Of a DNA stretch of 64,000 nucleotides, positions 6,613-51,236 are shown one piece after another (position 1 is the stretch's first letter; each line of letters begins with the position of its first letter). Position numbers and translations under genes: made by a program. This DNA is from Meloidogyne chitwoodi (lineage: Eukaryota; Nematoda; Chromadorea; Rhabditida; Meloidogynidae): contig JACZZP010000003.1 in NCBI GenBank assembly GCA_015183035.1, positions 558,001 through 622,000 of the forward strand. The letters run 5' to 3'. The notes beneath the pieces were generated by a model. It had not been told where the DNA came from and ran no database searches. It worked only from the letters and a program-made list of their open reading frames with translations.

Positions 6613-7226
6613 ATGCCAGGTACAAGCCAAGTTCGTGAGGGAGGTGATATTGAAGAGGTTTTTAATTTTTTATCAGAGTTGAAATCCAAGAAAACTTTCA
6701 GTTTGTTCTTGTTCTCGATCCTATTAGAAATAAGGAGATTGAGTTTCCTCTTAACAAAGATGGAACTCTTCCAATAACTAAACTTACTTTCTATTTTCCT
6801 GGTGCTTATGGTCTATACTATAAACATGAAAAGTTTGTCGAAAAATGTTTTGTTGGGTATGTTTATTTAAGTGTATTCAAAATTAACGTTTGCATTATTT
6901 ATAGTTTTGATAATAAAAAGAACGCTTTTTTGGCACCATCAGATGGATGGGTTGGAAAATTGTTCAATGTCACTTACAAAGGTTTCATTTTAGACATTGT
7001 AAACTTCAATCAATAATTTATTATTAATGTTAATTATAAAAAATTAAACTTAATGAGTTTTTATAGTTTAAAATTATATTTTAGATAATCGTCAGCGACC
7101 AAAATCTCCCCAAATACTTGGTATATTTTTAATTTCTAATTAATTTTAGATTCGCCTTGCCCTGTAGCTATAAAAAAATTTATTTTAAAGAAAATGGACT
7201 TCACTCACGTGCAGTTGCTGAAATGA
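6613..7226 (+). CDS. TDP-43 N-terminal-domain-like protein, array copy A
   Basis: First of five tandem paralogues. Exon 1 encodes a short polar N-terminus (MPGTSQVREGGDIEE). After a phase-0 intron ending TTTCAG, exon 2 gives FVLVLDPIRNKEIEF, DGTLPITKL and FPGAYGLYY; exon 3 gives FDNKKNAFLAPSDGW and FNVTYK. The pattern resembles the ubiquitin-like N-terminal domain of TDP-43 (family knowledge from memory). A short basic tail exon (DNRQRPKSPQ) begins at about 7085. With the next predicted intron removed, the frame ends at TGA 7224-7226, overlapping the ATG of copy B as ATGA; the 3' end is therefore uncertain. No signal peptide, RRM or membrane segment. Function unknown; oligomerisation is an inference from the fold resemblance. 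Confidence 0.7.
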
Positions 7227-8010
7227 GTAGGGGTGAAATAGGCCAGTCTGTTCGTAAAGAAGTTTTGCAAGACCAAGTTTTAATTAAATTTTTATTTAAT
7301 TTATAATTCAATTTTCAGTTCATTCGTGTTTATGATTCTATAAGCAATGAGACTATTGAGATTCTTCTTGGCAAGGATGGGAATATGCCAATAGCTAAAC
7401 TTAATCGTAGATTTCCTGGTGCACATTTTCTAGAATTTATAAATCCAAAAACTGGTTACAAACGCGATGTTGAGTACGTTTATTGAACTTAATATTAAAT
7501 ATATGTTTGCATTGTTTACAGTTTTGATGAAGAGAAAAAAGTGTTTTTGGCACCTTCTGATGGATGGGGAGATAAGACATTTGATGTTATTTGTAGAGGT
7601 TATTTTTAATTTAAAATTATTAAATTATGTGATTTTTGTTTTATGAAATACTGAATTTTAATAAACATTTTTACATCAAGTCTGTAATAGTTTACATTCT
7701 AGTTCATCTTCATTTTGAGATAATTAAGTTTAAAAATGTTATTTTAGAAGAACAACGTCAACCTCAAAAGCGTGTTTATCCTTATCAGTATATTTTTAAT
7801 TTCTATTTTCTAAAAAATAAAATAATAATTAAATTATTAGAATAATTAAACTCTTTATAATTCAGAACAATAGAACCGAGACTTCCAAATCCTTATTATG
7901 CAAAGCGTTCTTATTCCACAACACCACCGGCACTTATTATTTCTTCTCCTACTTATTCCCCAACACCACCGGAACTTTCAGCGTCTTCTCCTACTTATAG
8001 CTTTACCTAA
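7223..8010 (+). CDS. TDP-43 N-terminal-domain-like protein, array copy B
   Basis: Starts MSRGEIGQSVRKEVLQDQ, intron, FIRVYDSISNETIEILL, DGNMPIAKL, FPGAHFLEF, intron, FDEEKKVFLAPSDGWGD and FDVICR. Intron positions and phases match the other copies (0, 2, 1). After the domain come a basic exon (EEQRQPQKRVYPY) and a final exon with a short Pro/Ser/Thr/Tyr repeat (SPTYSPTPPEL then SSPTYSFT), ending at TAA 8008-8010. This is the longest tail of the array. The start codon lies in the shared context ACAAAGTTGCTGAAATGAG or close to it, which recurs before each copy. Nothing suggests secretion. Confidence 0.75.
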
Positions 8011-8366
8011 ATAATGGTATATTTTTAATTTCTATTATCTAAAAATAAATAAAATAATAATTAAATTATTAGAATAATTAAATTTATTTATAATTCAGGA
8101 CAACAGAATCTCGTAACTATTTTTAACTTTGATGGAATAAATGAAATTCGATTCGTATATTTAATTTTATATAACCTTATAAAAATAGCAGTCTATTTAT
8201 GTTTTTAAATTTTTCTCCTTTATATACTCTTTTTAATTTAGATAAATTTAAAAATCTTATTTATTTTTCTTATTGAATTGTTGAATAATACATTTGATTA
8301 TTTTATTGTTAATTTTACTTTCATTTTTAAAACTTTTCAGTAATCATCATTTACAAAGTTGCTGAA

Positions 8367-8931
8367 ATGAGTGCGATTGAAACAAACAAATCTGTTCGTA
8401 AAGAAGTTTACATGCAAGACCAGGTTTTTAATTAGACTTTTATTAGATTTAAAATTCAATTTTCAGTTCATTCGTGTTTTTGATCCTATCAAAAGTGTGA
8501 CTGTTGAGATTCTTCTTGACAAAGATGGGAATATGCCAATAGCTAAACTTGATCGTAGATTTCCTGGTGCATATTGTTTAGAATATACACATCCAAAAAC
8601 TGGCTACAAACGCGTTGTTGAGTACTTTTATTTAAATGTAATATTAAAATATATGTTTGTTTTATTAAATAGATTTGATGATAAGGAAAGAGCTTTTTTG
8701 CCACCATCAGATGGATGGGGTGATAAAACATTTGATGTTATTTTTAGAGGTTATTTTTTAATTTATTTTATTTTTGTTTTATGAAAAACAAGCTTAATAA
8801 ACATTTTAAAATCGAGTTTTTAATAATTAAAATTTTAGTTTATATTAACTTTTAAAATTATTTTAAATATTTTAGAAGAACGACATCATCAATATCCATA
8901 CTCAACAGGACCTAGATATATCCCGTGCTAA
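8367..8931 (+). CDS. TDP-43 N-terminal-domain-like protein, array copy C
   Basis: MSAIETNKSVRKEVYMQDQ, then FIRVFDPIKSVTVEILL, DGNMPIAKLDRRFPGAYCL and, after the second intron, FDDKERAFLPPSDGWGD with FDVIFR. This is the closest relative of copy B: exon 2 is nearly the same protein. The last exon reads EERHHQYPYSTGPRYIPC and stops at 8929-8931. That end has been altered by an insertion: AGGACCTAGATA occurs at both ends of about 210 foreign bases (8927-9120), and the ancestral sequence evidently continued from the first copy to the intron start now at 9138. The protein therefore probably has a new, shortened C-terminus. Confidence 0.75.
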
Positions 8932-9132
8932 GAAAATTGGTCAGTTAAGGAACAGTTCATAAAGTCACAAGAAAAAACAAAAGTCTTGGAAAACACAAAA
9001 ATACATAAAAGTATTTGTGTAGTTTTTAGAGTTCGCCCCCGGTGGGCGGGGATAGCTTTTACTGGGAACGGGACGAGAAATGTCGCCGGGGACGATCCGG
9101 GGTTGAGAAGAGTAAATTTCCAGGACCTAGAT
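8927..9132. mobile_element. ~210-bp insertion with 12-bp direct repeats and a GC-rich core
   Basis: The direct repeat AGGACCTAGATA ends before TATCCCGTGC at about 8920 and recurs before CATGGTATATTT at about 9120-9132. The insert holds a GC-rich core (CGCCCCCGGTGGGCGGGG, then GGGAACGGGACGAG) that stands out in this AT-rich DNA. The long target duplication would fit a reverse-transcribed insertion, but I recognise no parent sequence. Confidence 0.5.
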
Positions 9133-9515
9133 ACATGGTATATTTTTAATTTCTATTATCTAAAAAATAAATAAAAAATAAATTAAATTAGAATAATTAA
9201 ATTTATTTATAATTCAGGACAACAGAATCTCGTAACTATTTTTAACTTTGATGGAATAAATGAAATTCGATTCGTATATTTAATTTTATATAACCTTATA
9301 AAAAAGTTTTCCATATATGTTTTTCAATTTTTGTTTTTCTTTTATATACTCTCTTTTTTAATTTGATAAATTTAAAAATTTTATTTAGATTTTAATCGAA
9401 TTGTTGAATAATACATTTGATTATTTTATTTTTACTTTCTTTACACTTCATTTTTTAAACTTTTCAGTATTCTTTTCTGATCAACTTTAAATTCTTCATT
9501 TACAAAGTTGTTGAA

Positions 9516-10065
9516 ATGAGTTCTAGTGAAACAAGCCAATCTGCTCGTACTAAAAGTGACATTCAAGAGCAGGTTTTTAATTAAATTTTGAGGAGTTATA
9601 ATCAAAAAATAAAATTTTCAGTTTATTCTTGTTCTTGATTCTAGCATCAACCACAGCTTTATCAGCAAGGAGCTTAATGAGATTCTTCTTGCCAAAGATG
9701 GGACTTTGCCATTAGCGTCTCTTGATCGTAGATTTCCTGGTGCCCATTGTCTGATATATACAAATCCAAAAACTGAACGCAACCGCGCTGTTGAGTATGT
9801 TTATTTAAGTTAATTTTAAATGTTTGCATTATTTACAGGTTTGATGAGGAAAAGAAAGCTTTTTTGGCACCATCAGGTGGATGGGGTGATAAGAAATTTA
9901 CTGTTCTTTATAAAGGTTATTTTTAAATTAAAGTTTATTAAATTACATAATTTTTTTTTAGAAAACTAATATTTTACTAATTTTTCGCTTTAAACATTTT
10001 AAAATTAAATTTTAGAACGACGTGAACCTCCACCGCCTCCAAAGCCGTCTATTACTTACTATTAA
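9516..10065 (+). CDS. TDP-43 N-terminal-domain-like protein, array copy D
   Basis: MSSSETSQSARTKSDIQEQ, intron, FILVLDSSINHSFIS followed by KELNEILLAKDGTLPL, LDRRFPGAHCL, intron, FDEEKKAFLAPSGGWGD and FTVLYK. It carries an insertion of about six residues between the first and second strands compared with B, C and E. The tail is short, basic and proline-rich (ERREPPPPPKPSITYY), ending at TAA 10063-10065. Splice phases are those of the other copies. The upstream ~100 bp, including TTTACAAAGTTGTTGAAATG, is conserved with the other copies and may be a shared promoter or 5' UTR. Confidence 0.75.
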
Positions 10066-10581
10066 TTAAATATACATGGTATATATTTAATTTCTATTGT
10101 CTAAAAATAATAAAAATATTCCTTTTATGAATCTAAGATTTTTGGAGGGCAAAAAGGGTTAATTTTAAGAATGTTGTGTTAACAAAGAATGGGGTGTAGA
10201 AGAAGCCGTTTAGTATCTAAAAACAAAAAAATAATAATTAAATTTAGACTAAAATAATGAGAATTTTTTATAGTTAAGAACGACAGATGGCATTGAATAT
10301 TAGATGGAATATAGGATATAATAATTTATTTTCAAATATTGTTTGATCTCTTTATTTGTTTTATTGTAAATTTTTGGCTGCCTTTAATTTTATCAGATAT
10401 CAAATTATGATTTCGAATTATATTTTTGAATGTCTAATTAATTATATTGAAATCAATTTTTTAAAGGATTGTTTAATAATACATTTGATTACTTTTAATT
10501 TTATTTTCCACTTTTCATTTTTTAAACTTTTCAGTATTCTGGTAAAATTATAAATTCTTCATTTACAAAGTTATTGTTGAA

Positions 10582-11100
10582 ATGAGTTCGAGTGAAACAA
10601 GCCAATCTGTTCATACGGAAAATGCAATTCAAGACCAGGTTTTTATTTAAATTTTTATCTTAGGTGCAATTCAAAATTTAAGTTCATTCTTGTTCCCGAT
10701 CCTGACAAAGCTAACAAATTGCCTATTGAGATTCCTCTTACCAAAGAAGGGACTGTGCCATTGCCTTTTCTTGAGCGTAGATTTCCTGATGCAATGTGTT
10801 TAGAATATACAAATTCAAAAACTGGCCGCAAACGCGCTGTTATGTGCTTATATTTAAATTAATATTAAATATATTTTAATAATTTACAGGTTTGATGAGG
10901 AGAAAAACGCTTTTTTGGCACCCTCGGATGGATGGGGTGATAAACTATTTACTATCATTTATAAAGGTTTTTTTTAATTTAAACATCTAAAATCACAATC
11001 TAGTTTATACTAACTTTTATATATAATTAAATTTTAAAATTGTTTTATTCTAGAAGAACGACGTCAATTTACTCCTTGGCTTGGTCGTACTCAGAGTTAA
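10582..11100 (+). CDS. TDP-43 N-terminal-domain-like protein, array copy E
   Basis: MSSSETSQSVHTENAIQDQ, intron, FILVPDPDKANKLPIEIPL, EGTVPLPFLERRFPDAMCL, intron, FDEEKNAFLAPSDGWGD and FTIIYK, tail EERRQFTPWLGRTQS, stop 11098-11100. PIEIPL is very like the corresponding strand of TDP-43. It is the last gene before CDC5L, and the same neighbour relation is preserved as a relic at 50.8 kb. Exon 1 is almost identical to copy D, while exon 2 has diverged. Confidence 0.75.
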
Positions 11101-30255: not shown

Positions 30256-33200
30256 TCATTGGAAAAAAACTGGAGTAGGTTGTTTAAATTCCTAAAAAAA
30301 TTATTATTATTTTTAAATTAGAAAACATACAGCTAAAGCTTTTAAAAGTGTATTAGCCATGACTATGTAATTTCTGATATCAAAGCGTGCAGCATTTGCA
30401 ATACGTTCGTTGACATCTTCCTTTGGTTGGGAAGAAAAGTTTTCGAATCCCATAATTATACCAACAAGGCAGTCTCCATCCCAAACCGAAGAACCGCTAT
30501 CACCAGGTTTTATATTATTTGTACAAAGTGTAAAAGGTCCACAAATTGTATCAGATCCTAAAAAATTTATAATAAATTTAAAAATTAATTTATGTTAACC
30601 AAGATGATTCAAACCACCAAAAAAGTATTCTTCGCCTTTATGAACAATTCCATTAATGAAAGAAAGTTCGGAACTTCTATTGCCACGTCCAGCTAAAGTA
30701 ACTCTTTGCCCAGAACATTTTAAGCGAGATATTGGCGTGTTTTTCTCCATTATTTTTTGATTACTTTTGATAATAATAAAATCCAAATTTTCACAAATGA
30801 ATTCAATCACAGAATTAAAAGTTTGAGATCCATCGTCTGAGTGTATTTGAAATTCATCTCCAATCTTAAACTGCGAATGAGTTCCGTGACGAAAAGTTAT
30901 AAAGTGGGAATTATCAATTGGAGTGACACACGACTTATTGCCATTTTCGTTTATGTAGAAGCAATAAATAATTAGATCCTTTCCATTAGGTGGAGAGACT
31001 AAAATTATAATAATTCTAATGGTTCAAAATTAAATACAATATTAATTTAAATCAATTTTTAATTGCTCAGATATCAAAATAAAAAATACCTGGAACAGTT
31101 GCGTAGGGCGAAGAAGTTCTTTCACGAGCTAAAATATATTTTAAATTAAAAAATTCATCAGGCTTCTTTCAAATTTTAGAAAATTATTTATTGTCATGTT
31201 TCTAAATTATATGATAATGACTAGTGCCCGGTAAAATCGAGTTTTCCGGATTCCGGACCGGATTTAGATTTTGTGAATAGAGCCGGACCGGATCCGGCCG
31301 GATCCGGTGGGTATAATCCGGTCCGGAATGAATCCGGAGATTTTTAAAATCCGGATCCGGATGAATTTGTCCGGATTCCGGACCGGATTTTGGTTTTTTA
31401 TTAATTTTTCAAAAAAATGTAAAAATATTGGTAAAAAACTTCATTTTTCAAAATAAGCAACAATAAAATTTTATTAATAAGAGTAATTCAATTGTGGGAT
31501 TGCTTTGTTCAAAAAAATCAAATATTCAGCATTTTCTGGTGTATGATTGGACCTTCCTATAATCAAATACATCTCTTACTACACTGAAAATTTCCTCACT
31601 TTCAACATTTGTAGGAGTTGTCAAAAGTTAGCAAATTGTGGATTATTTTATGATTCTTTTCCACAGGTCTAGTGGGTCAGATCGCCGCGGGTTGAGCTCA
31701 AGTGTTGAGTTTCGGGACGGATAAATTTTCACAAATTTCTAGTAGTTTTAGCGCCGCAGGCAAAATTTTAGAGATTTTTTATGCTCCTGCTACCAAAAGT
31801 TCATCTTTTTATTGCCATTGGTGAAAATTTTTTACATCCTCTTGTAAAAATTTCCCTTAAGCGCCGCAGGCGAAAAATTAAAAAAATTTTAAATCTCTGT
31901 TGCCGAAAATTTCACTTTTTTGTGTCGCAGGCGATTTATTTAAATTTTTTTCAAATAAGCCAATTTGAAATATTTTATGCCAAACCATCTCTAAATAAAT
32001 ATCATGCATTGATAATCGCAATTAAAATATAAAATAAATGCAATAATTTATGTAAAAAGAGAAAAATTAATTTACTACAGTAGTAACCCCACCCCATTTG
32101 TCCGACCTTGAAAAGGTTTCGGACAAATAGGGATGGGAAAAGCCAAAACCTAAAGGACGATTCGCACATTTTGGAAGGAAAAAGCGGTAAAGATCAAAGT
32201 GAAGCCAAGACCTATTGGAGGATTTCGTGTGAAAAAACCACCAATTTGTCCGACCTTGAAAAGGTTTCGGACAAATTGGAGGAGGAAAAGCGGCAAAATT
32301 AAAGAGAAGCCAAGACCTAAAGGACGATTCGGACATTTTGGATGAGCAAAAACCAAAATCAAAGGGAAACCAATACCTATTGGACGATTTTAAGAGGAAA
32401 CCAAGACCTTTTGAATGATTGATTGATAGGTACATATGTACCTATCATAAATGATTGAGTGATTGATTGCCAGGTGATTAATTAATAATTTGATTCTCTG
32501 GAATTACCCCTCCCCAACATAATTGATCTTTCTGGGTTCCAGATATTTTTTGGATTCCAGTTATTTTTTAAAAACTATTTTTCGCGTGCGAATGATCCAA
32601 GAATAATACAGTATACATTTAAATAAATAAATTAAAAATTAAATAAAAATTAAATTAAAAATAAAATATTATTAAAGATATGGGAGGAAAGGGCGGAGAT
32701 AAAAAAAGGTCGAAAATCATTAAAAATAAAAAAATGATTTTTTGATCTTGGGAGGGATAAGAAAATAAGCCTGGCCACGCCCTTTTTGGATTAAACCAGC
32801 ATTCCTTATATTATTACAATGGTGAAAATGTCAAACTTACATAATATCAAAACGTCAAAATGTCAAACTTACATAATATCAAAAAAGTCAAAATGCCAAA
32901 TGTTCAAATTTTATTATTAAAGAAGAGAAGGAAATAAAAAATAGTTGAAAAATATTAAAAAACTACAAATGATTTTGATCTTGGGAAGGATAAGAAAATA
33001 AGCTTGACCACATCCCTTTTGGATTATATAATTTTATCATATTAGTAAGTGGTTATCTTTTGGATATTTTCTTGGTGATCTTCTGGGTGTGCTATAATTT
33101 AAAGTATTCTAGAACGGTCGACCTTGAACATACCAATAAATTGCTCGAAAGCAGGAGTATAAAAGCCGAGGTTTTTTGTCATTCTTCCATTTAAAATAAA

Positions 33201-39200: not shown

Positions 39201-39648
39201 CTTTTTAAAATAATCATTCACTAACATTAATAATAAATTGCTAATATAATTTTAAAACGTCTAAAATGAAACCTTTGTAAACTACAGTGAACAATTTACC
39301 ATCCCATCCACCAGAAGGCGCCAAAAAAACATTTCTTTCACTATCAAAACTATAAGTAATGCAAACATCAATTTCAAATTAAACTTAAATAAACATACTC
39401 AACAAAACATTTTAAGTCAATCTCTTCATTTTTATATTGTAAACATTTGGAACCAGGAAAATAACGATCAAGTTTAATTATTGGCAGAGTTCCATCTTTG
39501 GAAAGAAGAACACCGATTGTTTCATTATTGGCAGGATTAATAATACGAACGAACTGAAAATTGAGTTGTTGGATTTCAAATCTTTAAAAATTTAATTAAA
39601 AACCTCTTCACTGTCACCTCCCTCACTAACTTGGCTTGTACTTGGCAT
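30256..39648 (-). CDS. TDP-43-NTD-like domain fused to trypsin-like protease, locus 1
   Basis: Exons at 39648-39604 (MPSTSQVSEGGDSEE), 39553-39409 (FVRIINPANNETIGVLL; FPGSKCLQY), about 39350-39275 (FDSERNVFLAPSGGWDGKLF) and about 39165-39095 (DERERTASPIDVNMSPASSN). A giant intron follows, then a related short exon at about 31131-31092 (RERTSSPYATVP) and the protease exons 31000-30256. The protease part shows an S1/PA-clan triad: FITFRHGTH, NLDFIIIK and PGDSGSSV. It has no signal peptide or propeptide. All junctions I checked around the giant intron are phase 1, so the frame survives the ~7.8-kb transposon nest inside it. Substrate and role unknown; the fusion suggests an oligomerising intracellular protease. 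The two ERERTxSP exons look like an exon duplication. Confidence 0.7.
31474..31630 (-). pseudogene. hAT transposase C-terminal dimerisation domain, frameshifted
   Basis: Minus-strand reading gives NVESEEIFSVVRDVFDYR, then after a one-base shift SNHTPENAEYLIFLNKAIP and a stop at 31474. This is the typical hAT C-terminal pattern (S.ERIFS...., ..R..L.PEN.E.L.FL..N). The shift near 31550 and the absence of upstream parts mark it as dead. Confidence 0.75.
32079..32905 (+). repeat. Maverick left terminal inverted repeat
   Basis: About 0.8 kb, matching 37925-38728 in reverse. The outer part has internal repeats (GACGATTCGGACATTTTGGA; TTTGTCCGACCTTGAAAAGG). The inner part, with CCACGCCCTTTTTGGATTAA and ACATAATATCAAAA, is duplicated by one extra ~30-bp unit compared with the right copy. 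Open frames through it are repeat artefacts present in both ends. Confidence 0.85.
33158..33165 (+). promoter_or_regulatory. TATA box upstream of Maverick polymerase fragment
   Basis: TATAAAAG in the context GGAGTATAAAAGCCGAGG, 71 bp before the ATG at 33237. Confidence 0.45.
33237..34439 (+). pseudogene. Maverick DNA polymerase B, N-terminal fragment
   Basis: An uninterrupted 400-codon frame. The first ~190 residues are poorly characterised. It then has CLFYALEITKKYATK, NNHFDGIRNVGGMF and a Cys/His-rich part (YCFTCEKKYRKDCDH, RCNLCGRVGDG, CDDCGKKYVNEDCFNHYSC), the arrangement found before the exonuclease/polymerase core in nematode Maverick type-B polymerases (family knowledge). The reading runs out at about 34385, where it meets the capsid gene tail to tail. 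No exonuclease or polymerase motif (for example a DTDS-like active site) follows, so catalysis is lost. Confidence 0.65.
34308..34856 (-). pseudogene. Maverick major-capsid-like protein, 3'-truncated
   Basis: 182 codons starting at 34856. FHFKIHATTNYIDLAKCYIF and NCRMSINGTQVFEGNSLMAY then FDYELTYPQ resemble the N-terminal jelly-roll part of Maverick/adintovirus hexon-like proteins (in nematodes, F54H12.2-like). The family protein is normally several hundred residues longer. This one is cut at about 34385 by the deletion that also truncates the polymerase, and its last codons are antisense polymerase DNA. It starts 10 bp after the stop of the next gene upstream. Confidence 0.6.
34867..35418 (-). 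CDS. Maverick minor capsid/core-like protein
   Basis: An intact 183-codon frame. GLAPYQRGYGRQTGGGVGDV then a helix LLPYAKRAGTAVAKEALATG is the pattern of the small Gly-rich, basic virion-core/minor-capsid proteins (PX/pX-like) encoded beside the capsid gene in Mavericks and adintoviruses. The C-terminus is highly basic (GLKRKRQSHS, KKKRQKIDTFGLY), fitting DNA binding. The assignment rests on this short pattern and the neighbouring capsid gene. Confidence 0.6.
   Translation of the reverse strand: MVHIPFDTRTVGYDDYHISINQIGEGSNEPIHYFRGLAPYQRGYGRQTGGGVGDVLRHFWRFLLPYAKRAGTAVAKEALATGGRILENAENVQSDKESPQLNLKQNVINEGKRGLDRLLEQGGMPKQFGTGLRIRKSSIKGLKRKRQSHSPISKENSHQIIVGKRPSLIQKKKRQKIDTFGLY
35606..36530 (-). 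CDS. Chromodomain protein carried by the Maverick
   Basis: Exon 1 (36530 to about 36300) starts MFNLRPPSRNGLSTPPRQ and contains a chromodomain: FEVQSILTTRIV, RQYLIKWKNYGFDALSWED and the aromatic/acidic positions expected (W-K-N-Y, W-E). A second exon (about 36215-36010) gives LKNKWVLEHLDRD and an acidic stretch ending SKRKRFKK. Further possible exons at about 35965-35606 give MDECTSSIIQENRGQRTGK and ARSGAERRRRRQVCK. Chromodomains in mobile elements usually sit on integrases and guide them to heterochromatin. Here no integrase core is present, so it may be an integrase tail remnant or an independent gene. Exon structure is tentative. Confidence 0.5.
36702..37186. repeat. 32-bp minisatellite, 15 copies, in the Maverick
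   Basis: Near-identical 32-bp units with core TCAAGTATCCAGGCC and AAAGCCGGTCCCTG. Variants are AAATC/AAGTC at the unit start, GTATCC/GTTTCC and CCAAAG/CCTAAG. Much more GC-rich than its surroundings. Confidence 0.9.
37262..37560. repeat. Helitron-like 5' end and AAATAAAT tract
   Basis: CTATATATAAAAGGAATG then GTTTGTTTG resembles the left end of the element at 16310. It is followed by some 200 bp of AAATAAATAAA low-complexity sequence. Confidence 0.35.
37925..38728 (-). repeat. Maverick right terminal inverted repeat
   Basis: Reverse complement of 32079-32905 with only scattered differences over about 800 bp, implying fairly recent insertion or gene conversion between the ends. Confidence 0.85.
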
Positions 39649-48913: not shown

Positions 48914-50387
48914 ATGTCAAGTACAAGCCAAGCTCGTGAGGGAGGTGATATCGGAGTGAAGGTTTTTAATTTATTTTTTATCAGAGTTGAAATCCAGTAA
49001 CAATTTTCAGGTCGTTGGTATTATTAATCCTGCCAATGATAAGACTGTCTGTGTTCCTATTTCAAAGGATGGAAATCTTCAATTGTCTTCGCTTAAGCGT
49101 GCAATTCCTCGTGCTTATGGATTAAACTTTAAAAATAAAATGAATGAACTAATATATTCTGTTGAGTACGTTTATTGAAGTTTAATTTAAAATTAATTTT
49201 GAATTATTTAGTTTTGATAAGAAAATAGACGCTTTTTTACCGCCTGATGGTGGATGGGGCTCAAGATTATATAATGTCATTTTCAAAGGTTATTTTTAAA
49301 TTACTCTTCTTGTTTAAGAGTATTTTTATGCTTTAAACATTTTAAAATTCTTTAAGTAATTTATAATTAATGTTGTTATAAAAGATTAAATCTGATGAAT
49401 TTTTAGATTTTAAAATTATATTTTAGAAAATTATCTTCGACCAAAGTCGCCATACCGAACCGTTCAAGGTATATTTTTAAATATTTAAAATTCTGTCGGA
49501 ATTTTCTGAAATATCTACAATAAAACAATGGGATGATTAATTTTGCCCGCTAATCATTTATAAATTTTAGCCAAATTACCTGGAAAAGAGGATCTTGAAA
49601 AATATTTATACACTATCATCGAAAAAAATCATGTCCGTTCCTGTGTTTGCTTTATTAAAAAAAATTATTTTTCAACGTTTTTCCATGGAATCCATCAAAA
49701 GTATGAACGTGGTGTATCGATTAAAGTATATTCTTCTGATGAAAAAATTTGTTATGATACGAAAGTTATAAGCACTAACAAACGATTGGACTTTGTTATA
49801 CTCAAGACTATAAAAGAGATGGAGCTTGTTGGTCCTCCTCTTTGTGAATATCAATGTACTATAGTTAATCTCTTGCTTTATGGTAGAGGAAACAAGAATA
49901 ATCAACTTTGCACCAGTGATGGATTTTCACATATGATGCAGATATTTGAAGGTTAGAATTTTCTTTATAAGAAAGTAAATGTATATTCAGAGCCAAAAGA
50001 AATGGGTCCATTTATGATTGGCACAATAGATGTTACGAGTGGTGATTCGGGCGGTCCAGTCGTTGATGGTCATGGTTTGTTTGGCATGAATCTGGGGCGC
50101 TTATCCTATAAACAAAAATCTCAAATTAATACAAATGAACTTGCATCTACTATCAAACGTTCAGATGATCCTTCTCCTAAAAATTATATGGTTATTACGA
50201 GAGATTTACTGTTGGCCATAAATGTATGATTTTTTTAATTATTAAAATACTTTTTCCAAGTAAGTATATTATGAATTTTTAACATAAAAAACAAGTTTTA
50301 ATCAATAATGATTTTTAGAATGATGAGGGTCGTGAATATAGAAAAAGGAAAAGAAGTGAATCGCCTTCTGGAGATCTTTACCTTTAA
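48914..50387 (+). CDS. TDP-43-NTD-like domain fused to trypsin-like protease, locus 2
   Basis: Exon 1 (48914-48961, MSSTSQAREGGDIGVK), exon 2 from 49011 (VVGIINPANDKTVCVPISKD; IPRAYGLNF), exon 3 (FDKKIDAFLPPDGGWGSRLY, NVIFK) and a basic linker exon (ENYLRPKSPYRTVQ, compare copy A's DNRQRPKSPQ). A protease domain follows from about 49570: FIKKNYFSTFFHGIHQKYER (His), TNKRLDFVILKT (Asp) and VTSGDSGGPVVDGHGLFGMN (Ser). The last exon is strongly basic, REYRKRKRSESPSGDLYL, a likely nuclear localisation signal, stop at 50387. No secretion signal. The triad and GDSGGPV match S1/PA-clan peptidases; HtrA-type intracellular proteases are a possible comparison. The TDP-like half lacks the FPGA motif (here IPRA), so it is more diverged than the array copies. 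Confidence 0.75.
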
Positions 50388-51236
50388 TTAGTGAAAAATT
50401 TAATATAATTGTTTCTCCAATGCAAATTTTTTTTTTAAAATAACAACAGAGAGTTATATTTGTTTTCTTATTTGTCTGATCCAGTATTTATTAAATTTTT
50501 ATGATTTAAAGGTTATTTTAAAATATTACTTTTTGGAAAATTTTATTAAATTTTAGAACAGAAAGAGGTTAATTTATTAAAGTTTTTGCCATGGATTTAT
50601 TAAATGTTTTTCTTTTAAATTGATGTTGAACATTAGTTCTGTTGTTTGATATGTTTATTCTTTGATGTATAAATTTATTTCTTTAATTTTTGACTACCTT
50701 TGTTTTTAATTGTATCGGATATTTATATTTCCAAATTTTATTTTTTTAACGTTTTTTGTTTTGTTTTTCCATTATATACTTGTAAATCAGCAAAATAATG
50801 CAAAGCTCGTTGGTATGAGTGGCTTGATCCTCGAATTAAAAGACTGAATGGTTACGATAGGAAGATGAAGAGCTTCTCCATTCATTCAAAAGTGTTAGAT
50901 TTTATTGATCAAGACCAAAAGCAACTGAATTGAAGGTTTTATTTATAAGTAAAATAGCTTTTAATATTTTAATTATTTTAAGTGGCTGTTAAATTGGATC
51001 AGAATTTGATGGATTATTTGAAAACTAAACTAATTTTTGGAATTATTTAAACAATTTTTAAATCCAGAAAATTTACGCGATTTTTTGAGAGAAGTTTTTA
51101 AAAAATTTCATAGGAACGATCCGATTTGACTAGTCCTTCAAATCCTGCAAAACCTAAAAATAGCAGGATTTTTACTTTAATTTTCAATTTATTTTCATAT
51201 TTTAGTGATTTTTTAAAATATTTTATTTTCTTTAAA
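50388..51236. other. Intergenic region with CDC5L-derived relic
   Basis: The first half resembles the DNA before CDC5L (TTTGACTACCTTTG..TCGGATAT at about 50690 compared with 11310-11345). A broken CDC5L exon follows at 50787-50905. The remainder is AT-rich and upstream of the alanyl-tRNA synthetase. Confidence 0.6.
50787..50905 (+). pseudogene. CDC5L second-Myb exon fragment
   Basis: AAATCAGCAAAATAATGCAA then CTCGTTGGTATGAGTGGCTT is nearly identical to the CDC5L exon at about 11597-11640. The copy then degrades: one base is missing in the AAAAAGACTGAATGG stretch and the reading frame is lost. It shows that the neighbouring protease-fusion gene was copied together with part of CDC5L. Confidence 0.85.

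Follow-up and report, generated by a model that had tools for sequence, protein, structure and literature searches.

Why should a nematode carry five adjacent genes for a domain found in TDP-43, the protein that clumps in amyotrophic lateral sclerosis, with no RNA recognition motif (RRM) behind it? The question is raised by a tandem array at positions 6613-11100, plus strand, of the window, by which we mean the whole 64,000-nucleotide stretch C23:558001-622000 of the Meloidogyne chitwoodi genome (47,477,280 bases in 30 contigs). A preliminary description of the window had likened the encoded proteins to the TDP-43 N-terminal domain (NTD) and suggested that they form or cap filaments, or compete with the worm's own TDP-1. 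The reading that we favour, with a probability of roughly two in five, is that NTD assembly has been reused to bring putative proteases together, the NTD-only proteins co-assembling with siblings in which the NTD precedes a trypsin-like domain; the assembly, the cross-talk and the protease activity are what we infer. These NTD-protease siblings were overlooked in the preliminary description, and they change the likeliest role of the NTD-only proteins.

Identity of the array domain

All five genes, adjacent and with identical intron phases according to the preliminary description, could be modelled on one plan: a first exon, a phase-0 intron, the first part of the NTD, a phase-2 intron, the second part of the NTD, a phase-1 intron and a short tail exon (Table 1). 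The proteins of genes 2-5 are of 113-156 residues with a single domain each, while the end of gene 1 is uncertain. The Pfam profile TDP-43_N (PF18694) matches all five at 53.8-60.1 bits against a curated cut-off of 27.1, W1 having entered this comparison without its uncertain end, and a PDB sequence search with gene 2 returned TDP-43 chains as the best 8 of 10 matches. The fold of a close relative is the ubiquitin/DIX-like one of the TDP-43 NTD. Because profile, fold of the close relative and gene structure agree, the array domains are almost certainly TDP-43-type NTDs, and the same agreement of profile, fold and introns rules out a chance likeness. The absence of a following RRM also holds, in that none of the 90 RRM_1 matches listed genome-wide falls inside C23:426-640 kb; a cluster without an RRM match, together with the array genes' own tail exons, rules out a simple broken tdp-1 copy.

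The worm does have its own TDP-1, at C1:130.6 kb, where the frames show an NTD, a basic stretch, two stretches resembling RRMs and a Q-rich end; in a rough model of it Pfam gives the NTD and one RRM_1, both over cut-off. The likeness of the array to TDP-43 and nematode TDP-1 lies in the NTD, by profile and by fold of the close relative, and in the phase-2 intron, which M. chitwoodi TDP-1 has as well, whereas the C23 cluster has short tails or a protease where RRMs would stand. The tail of W2 is rich in Ser/Thr/Pro/Tyr, and its last exon (7866-8010) holds Tyr-Ser-Pro-Thr-like repeats, which we take to resemble the C-terminal repeat of RNA polymerase II.

Table 1. Modelled genes and gene pieces of the window.
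Feature	Position	Strand	Exons and remarks
W1, NTD-only	6613..7167	+	6613-6657, 6702-6856, 6905-6981, 7085 on; terminal exon and stop uncertain
W2, NTD-only, 156 aa	7223..8010	+	7223-7276, 7319-7473, 7522-7598, 7748-7787, 7866-8010
W3, NTD-only, 114 aa	8367..8931	+	8367-8423, 8467-8621, 8673-8749, 8876-8931
W4, NTD-only, 118 aa	9516..10065	+	9516-9572, 9622-9794, 9839-9915, 10016-10065
W5, NTD-only, 113 aa	10582..11100	+	10582-10638, 10683-10843, 10890-10966, 11054-11100
Trypsin-like protease copy (588k)	30326..31128	-	linker exon 31128-31090 and two protease exons
W6, NTD copy	39273..39648	-	39604-39648, 39399-39553, 39273-39349; then linker-like exon, then repeat array
W7, NTD-linker-trypsin-like protease	48914..50229	+	48914-48961, 49011-49165, 49212-49288, 49427-49468, 49571-49951, 49991-50229 (including stop)

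A lineage-expanded family in two forms

The array sits within a larger cluster, with related genes elsewhere in the window at 30.3-31.1 kb (minus), 39.3-39.6 kb (minus) and 48.9-50.2 kb (plus). Across the genome at least 26 separate loci match TDP-43_N in an exon, 24 of them over the cut-off as single exons, and 17 lie in C23:426-640 kb as runs of three, five and five with four scattered copies. PF18694 is matched at E <= 0.01 by all 24 rows of alignment A2, which, like the protein tree (good support for 2 of its 25 inner branches), excludes C8:1695k and one arm of a palindrome described below. By reading, no other domain was seen in 17 of the 26 copies, and five run on into a divergent trypsin-like domain, one of them intact in the window (W7). 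The intron inside the NTD has phase 2 and a corresponding position in 22 of 22 spliced copies, including TDP-1, C30 and C10, with exon boundaries chosen by best profile score among GT/GC-AG pairs and the count leaving out two C8 copies, C29 and one palindrome arm; C29 lacks the shared intron, since its reading frame is open across that point. TDP-1 has one extra intron, after GWENK, that is absent from the cluster copies by reading. What exists here is a lineage-expanded TDP-43-type NTD family that shares an NTD intron with M. chitwoodi tdp-1, and it occurs in this genome in two main forms, NTD-only and NTD-linker-trypsin-like domain.

The two forms are alike beyond the NTD. After exon 3 both have a phase-1 intron and then a short tail or linker exon, followed in W7 and in six NTD-only copies (545k, 547k and W2-W5) by the donor-like motif GTATATTTTTAA or its variants. 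The motif is also visible by eye in W1, 427k, 428k and 639k; for 636k and C8:1695k the script reported none, nine other copies lying outside its output. W3, W4, W5, 545k and 547k end before the motif and W2 splices onward to a further exon. Since the tail/linker layout is common to both kinds and the motif is present in NTD-only copies, the pattern agrees with a sibling relation in which the NTD-only genes either lost the protease or never acquired it.

At the level of gene models the fusion of the NTD to a predicted trypsin-like domain is plain, with one NTD per protein in the four fusion proteins scanned. The His/Asp/Ser triad with GDSG is invariant in all six trypsin-like copies (W7 and five others), and all six match Pfam Trypsin_2 at E <= 1 (best E 2.8e-4), with printed scores of 17.0-21.9 bits that do not reach the curated cut-off of 27.6. 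No relative of the protease was found among 1151 protein-database candidates at E <= 1 by a search that needs shared 5-residue words and similar length, and none of 85 pattern matches among viral contigs was confirmed. A PDB profile search gave 22 matches, none significant (E 0.46-4.7), to other serine or HtrA-like proteases and to alphavirus-type capsid proteins, which are self-cleaving and chymotrypsin-like. Against DegP/DegQ/DegS the triad of the protease profile aligned in register, but with P 0.084, and against DegP alone only 29 columns align. The protease copy at 588k has no NTD match close upstream, the NTD of W6 being some 8 kb away in that direction and on the same strand; one NTD-protease gene may here have been split by repeats. 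Stretches rich in CCGGATCCGG adjoin this protease copy (window 31205-31440) and W6 (just downstream), both on the minus strand, and a TTTGTCCGCAAAA-type repeat adjoins two further NTD copies (L016 near 2201-2290, and L009 near 427k).

The preliminary description knew of no family of this kind. We likewise found no paper on it among the matches listed from the open-licence PMC literature, but UniProt names such proteins automatically ('TAR DNA-binding protein 43 N-terminal domain-containing protein' and the like) in M. enterolobii (P0001), M. hapla (P0003) and Plectus sambesii (P0006), so that NTD-only proteins are not unique to M. chitwoodi. These are short NTD-only records, that of M. hapla (77 aa) ending inside the domain; they differ from the family here in being few, with no protease fusion among the matches listed in a search confined to short proteins. 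The copy at C23:1418 kb is 73% identical to P0001 and has its tail in common, and that at C29:323 kb groups with P0006 in the tree (support 90/75), so an NTD-only protein is recorded outside Meloidogyne too. A frame near the C29 copy (L013) carries the tail GSYENASKQFERSVN, common to P0006, and the two apparently represent an ancient family of NTD-only nematode proteins that lacks the shared intron.

Proposed NTD assembly and its possible partners

We suggest the following course of events. The NTD would keep its ancestral job of reversible head-to-tail self-assembly, and the NTD-proteases would cluster or dimerise through their NTDs, which would set their activity or place. NTD-only proteins would co-assemble with them as extra subunits, scaffolds, caps or decoys, might recruit them, and could in this way set the length, place or dose of the protease assembly; perhaps they act on TDP-1 too. 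The separate parts of this scheme have counterparts. For TDP-43 itself, PMC5491494 describes NTD polymerisation as needed for splicing and as countering pathologic aggregation, and it likens DIX domains, which polymerise head to tail, to the TDP-43 NTD in monomer and polymer structure; at very low sequence likeness by the same account, DIX serves as an analogy only. In FAM111A and FAM111B, according to PMC9798293, a Trypsin_2-type serine protease is preceded by ubiquitin-like domains, and that of FAM111A is reported to depend on dimerisation (PMC10920703). By analogy, the order of a ubiquitin-like domain before a trypsin-like one is the same, but FAM111 has two such domains where a single TDP-43-type NTD is found here. 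A domain-only regulator is known from pyrin-only proteins, which inhibit filament assembly of their longer relatives (PMC10803020); the parallel with NTD-only proteins is an analogy only. More speculatively, and with a good deal less confidence than in the favoured reading, the family could be an undescribed nematode filament-gated protease system, in which the NTD, captured as an assembly module, was joined to a trypsin-like protease of the cell interior and also multiplied in NTD-only subunits, whose co-polymerisation or capping would switch the protease. Such a system would be a ubiquitin-fold counterpart of the CARD/pyrin-caspase platforms with their CARD-only and pyrin-only regulators, the pyrin-only fold being different from that of the TDP-43 NTD.

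How far the copies could still polymerise was judged from the contacts of the TDP-43 polymer crystal, as reported in PMC5491494 and PMC5830921. Among the 17 cluster copies E17 is kept in 15, N45 in 14, R52 in 14 and S/T48 in 13, E17 and R52 occur together in 14, and of the four polar residues most often retained, three are E17, N45 and R52. Weighing against co-assembly, E21, Q34, R55 and N76 are kept in none of the 17 and E14 in five, and conservation at the nine polar interface sites does not significantly exceed that at 23 others (p 0.31), a set-wise result that leaves wholesale conservation of the polymer interface unsupported. The central contact thus appears mostly kept, and the flanking E21-R55 bridge appears gone on both sides, an acid at 21 persisting in W3 only. 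The suggestion of filament forming or capping stands in part, through the contact residues kept in most copies, and is weakened by those kept in none. The worm's TDP-1 has lost R55, Q34 and N76 too, and retains E14, E17, R52 and an acid at 21.

With some contact residues kept, cross-talk with TDP-1 is possible, and the NTD-only proteins might, as the preliminary description had it, act mainly on TDP-1, inserting into or capping its chains to tune splicing. TDP-1 is present, E17, N45 and R52 are common to it and most copies, and W1, in which E17 is kept and the head residues are changed (N45H, S48F, R52C), would fit a one-sided cap. We nevertheless regard this as unlikely, the NTD-protease siblings of the same cluster being the nearer partner and the acid that TDP-1 has at position 21 being found among the cluster copies in W3 only. 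In W6 and W7 both E17 and R52 are lost.

Whether co-assembling with proteases or with TDP-1, the copies are a natural set of open, spliceable NTDs that have lost the two polymer faces to differing degrees, from which the rules of NTD assembly could be read in evolution. The NTD is evidently separable from RNA binding and joinable to an enzyme-like domain, and NTD-only proteins, if they cap or decoy, would be natural modulators of TDP-43-type polymers.

Selection, duplication and minor copies

Might the copies be no more than drifting, mostly non-functional by-products of segmental duplication? Pieces of a neighbour gene, presumably cdc5l, lie near NTD copies at four cluster places (two identical, two diverged) and point to segmental duplication, and repeats lie near W6, the 588k protease copy and C8:1695k. 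The median pairwise dN/dS is 0.70 (21 copies; 173 of 210 pairs with dS < 1.5), with 18 pairs above 1, by NG86 only and over 76-83 codons in the pairs printed; positive selection is not claimed, and the values of W3/W5 (dN 0.32, dS 0.14) may reflect gene conversion. Neutral drift, however, accords poorly with open frames: 21 of 22 modelled NTDs are stop-free, the exception being TDP-1, where the script ran into the next intron, whereas in simulated drift the probability that the NTD of W3 stayed free of stops was 0.29 at distance 0.1, 0.11 at 0.2 and 0.05 at 0.3. Exon 3 is constant as well: of 18 copies that the script measured, 17 gave 77 nt, and in W2, where an earlier GT was chosen (71 nt), the modelled exon 7522-7598 has 77 nt too. 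The triad is kept in all six trypsin-like copies. The genes look loosely constrained and not freely decaying, and we consider a neutral origin of the whole set improbable.

Tandem, fast-evolving sets with one interaction domain in common could also be a selfish pair driven by conflict, in which the NTD-protease would do harm and co-assembling NTD-only siblings would neutralise it. Another nematode is reported to have toxin-antidote elements (PMC12680543), but with protease activity only putative, this is a very improbable account. Fast evolution in a plant parasite might likewise suggest secreted parasitism proteins acting in the plant, which we consider the least credible explanation: the first exons, which open with a start codon in each of the 16 copies read (546k left out), show no hydrophobic leader by eye, no signal-peptide program having been run, and an NTD-only relative is recorded for Plectus, which is free-living. 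Reuse of NTD assembly around the putative proteases remains the reading that we prefer.

The cdc5l-like gene adjoins the array (window 11433 on), and an identical Myb-like exon and two diverged pieces lie elsewhere (~50799-50930; L011, minus strand). At C10:1032k (L019) an NTD copy is followed in nearby frames by a transmembrane-like and a coiled-coil-like stretch, exons not confirmed, a possible membrane-anchored form. Finally, a near-perfect palindrome of 1.05 kb (97%) at C1:2898.3-2899.4 kb (L015:2836-3874) holds two inverted copies of the tdp-1 NTD exons; both arms, two of the 26 matches, are ~80% identical to tdp-1, and a transcript of it could fold back on itself as a long hairpin of tdp-1-related sequence.

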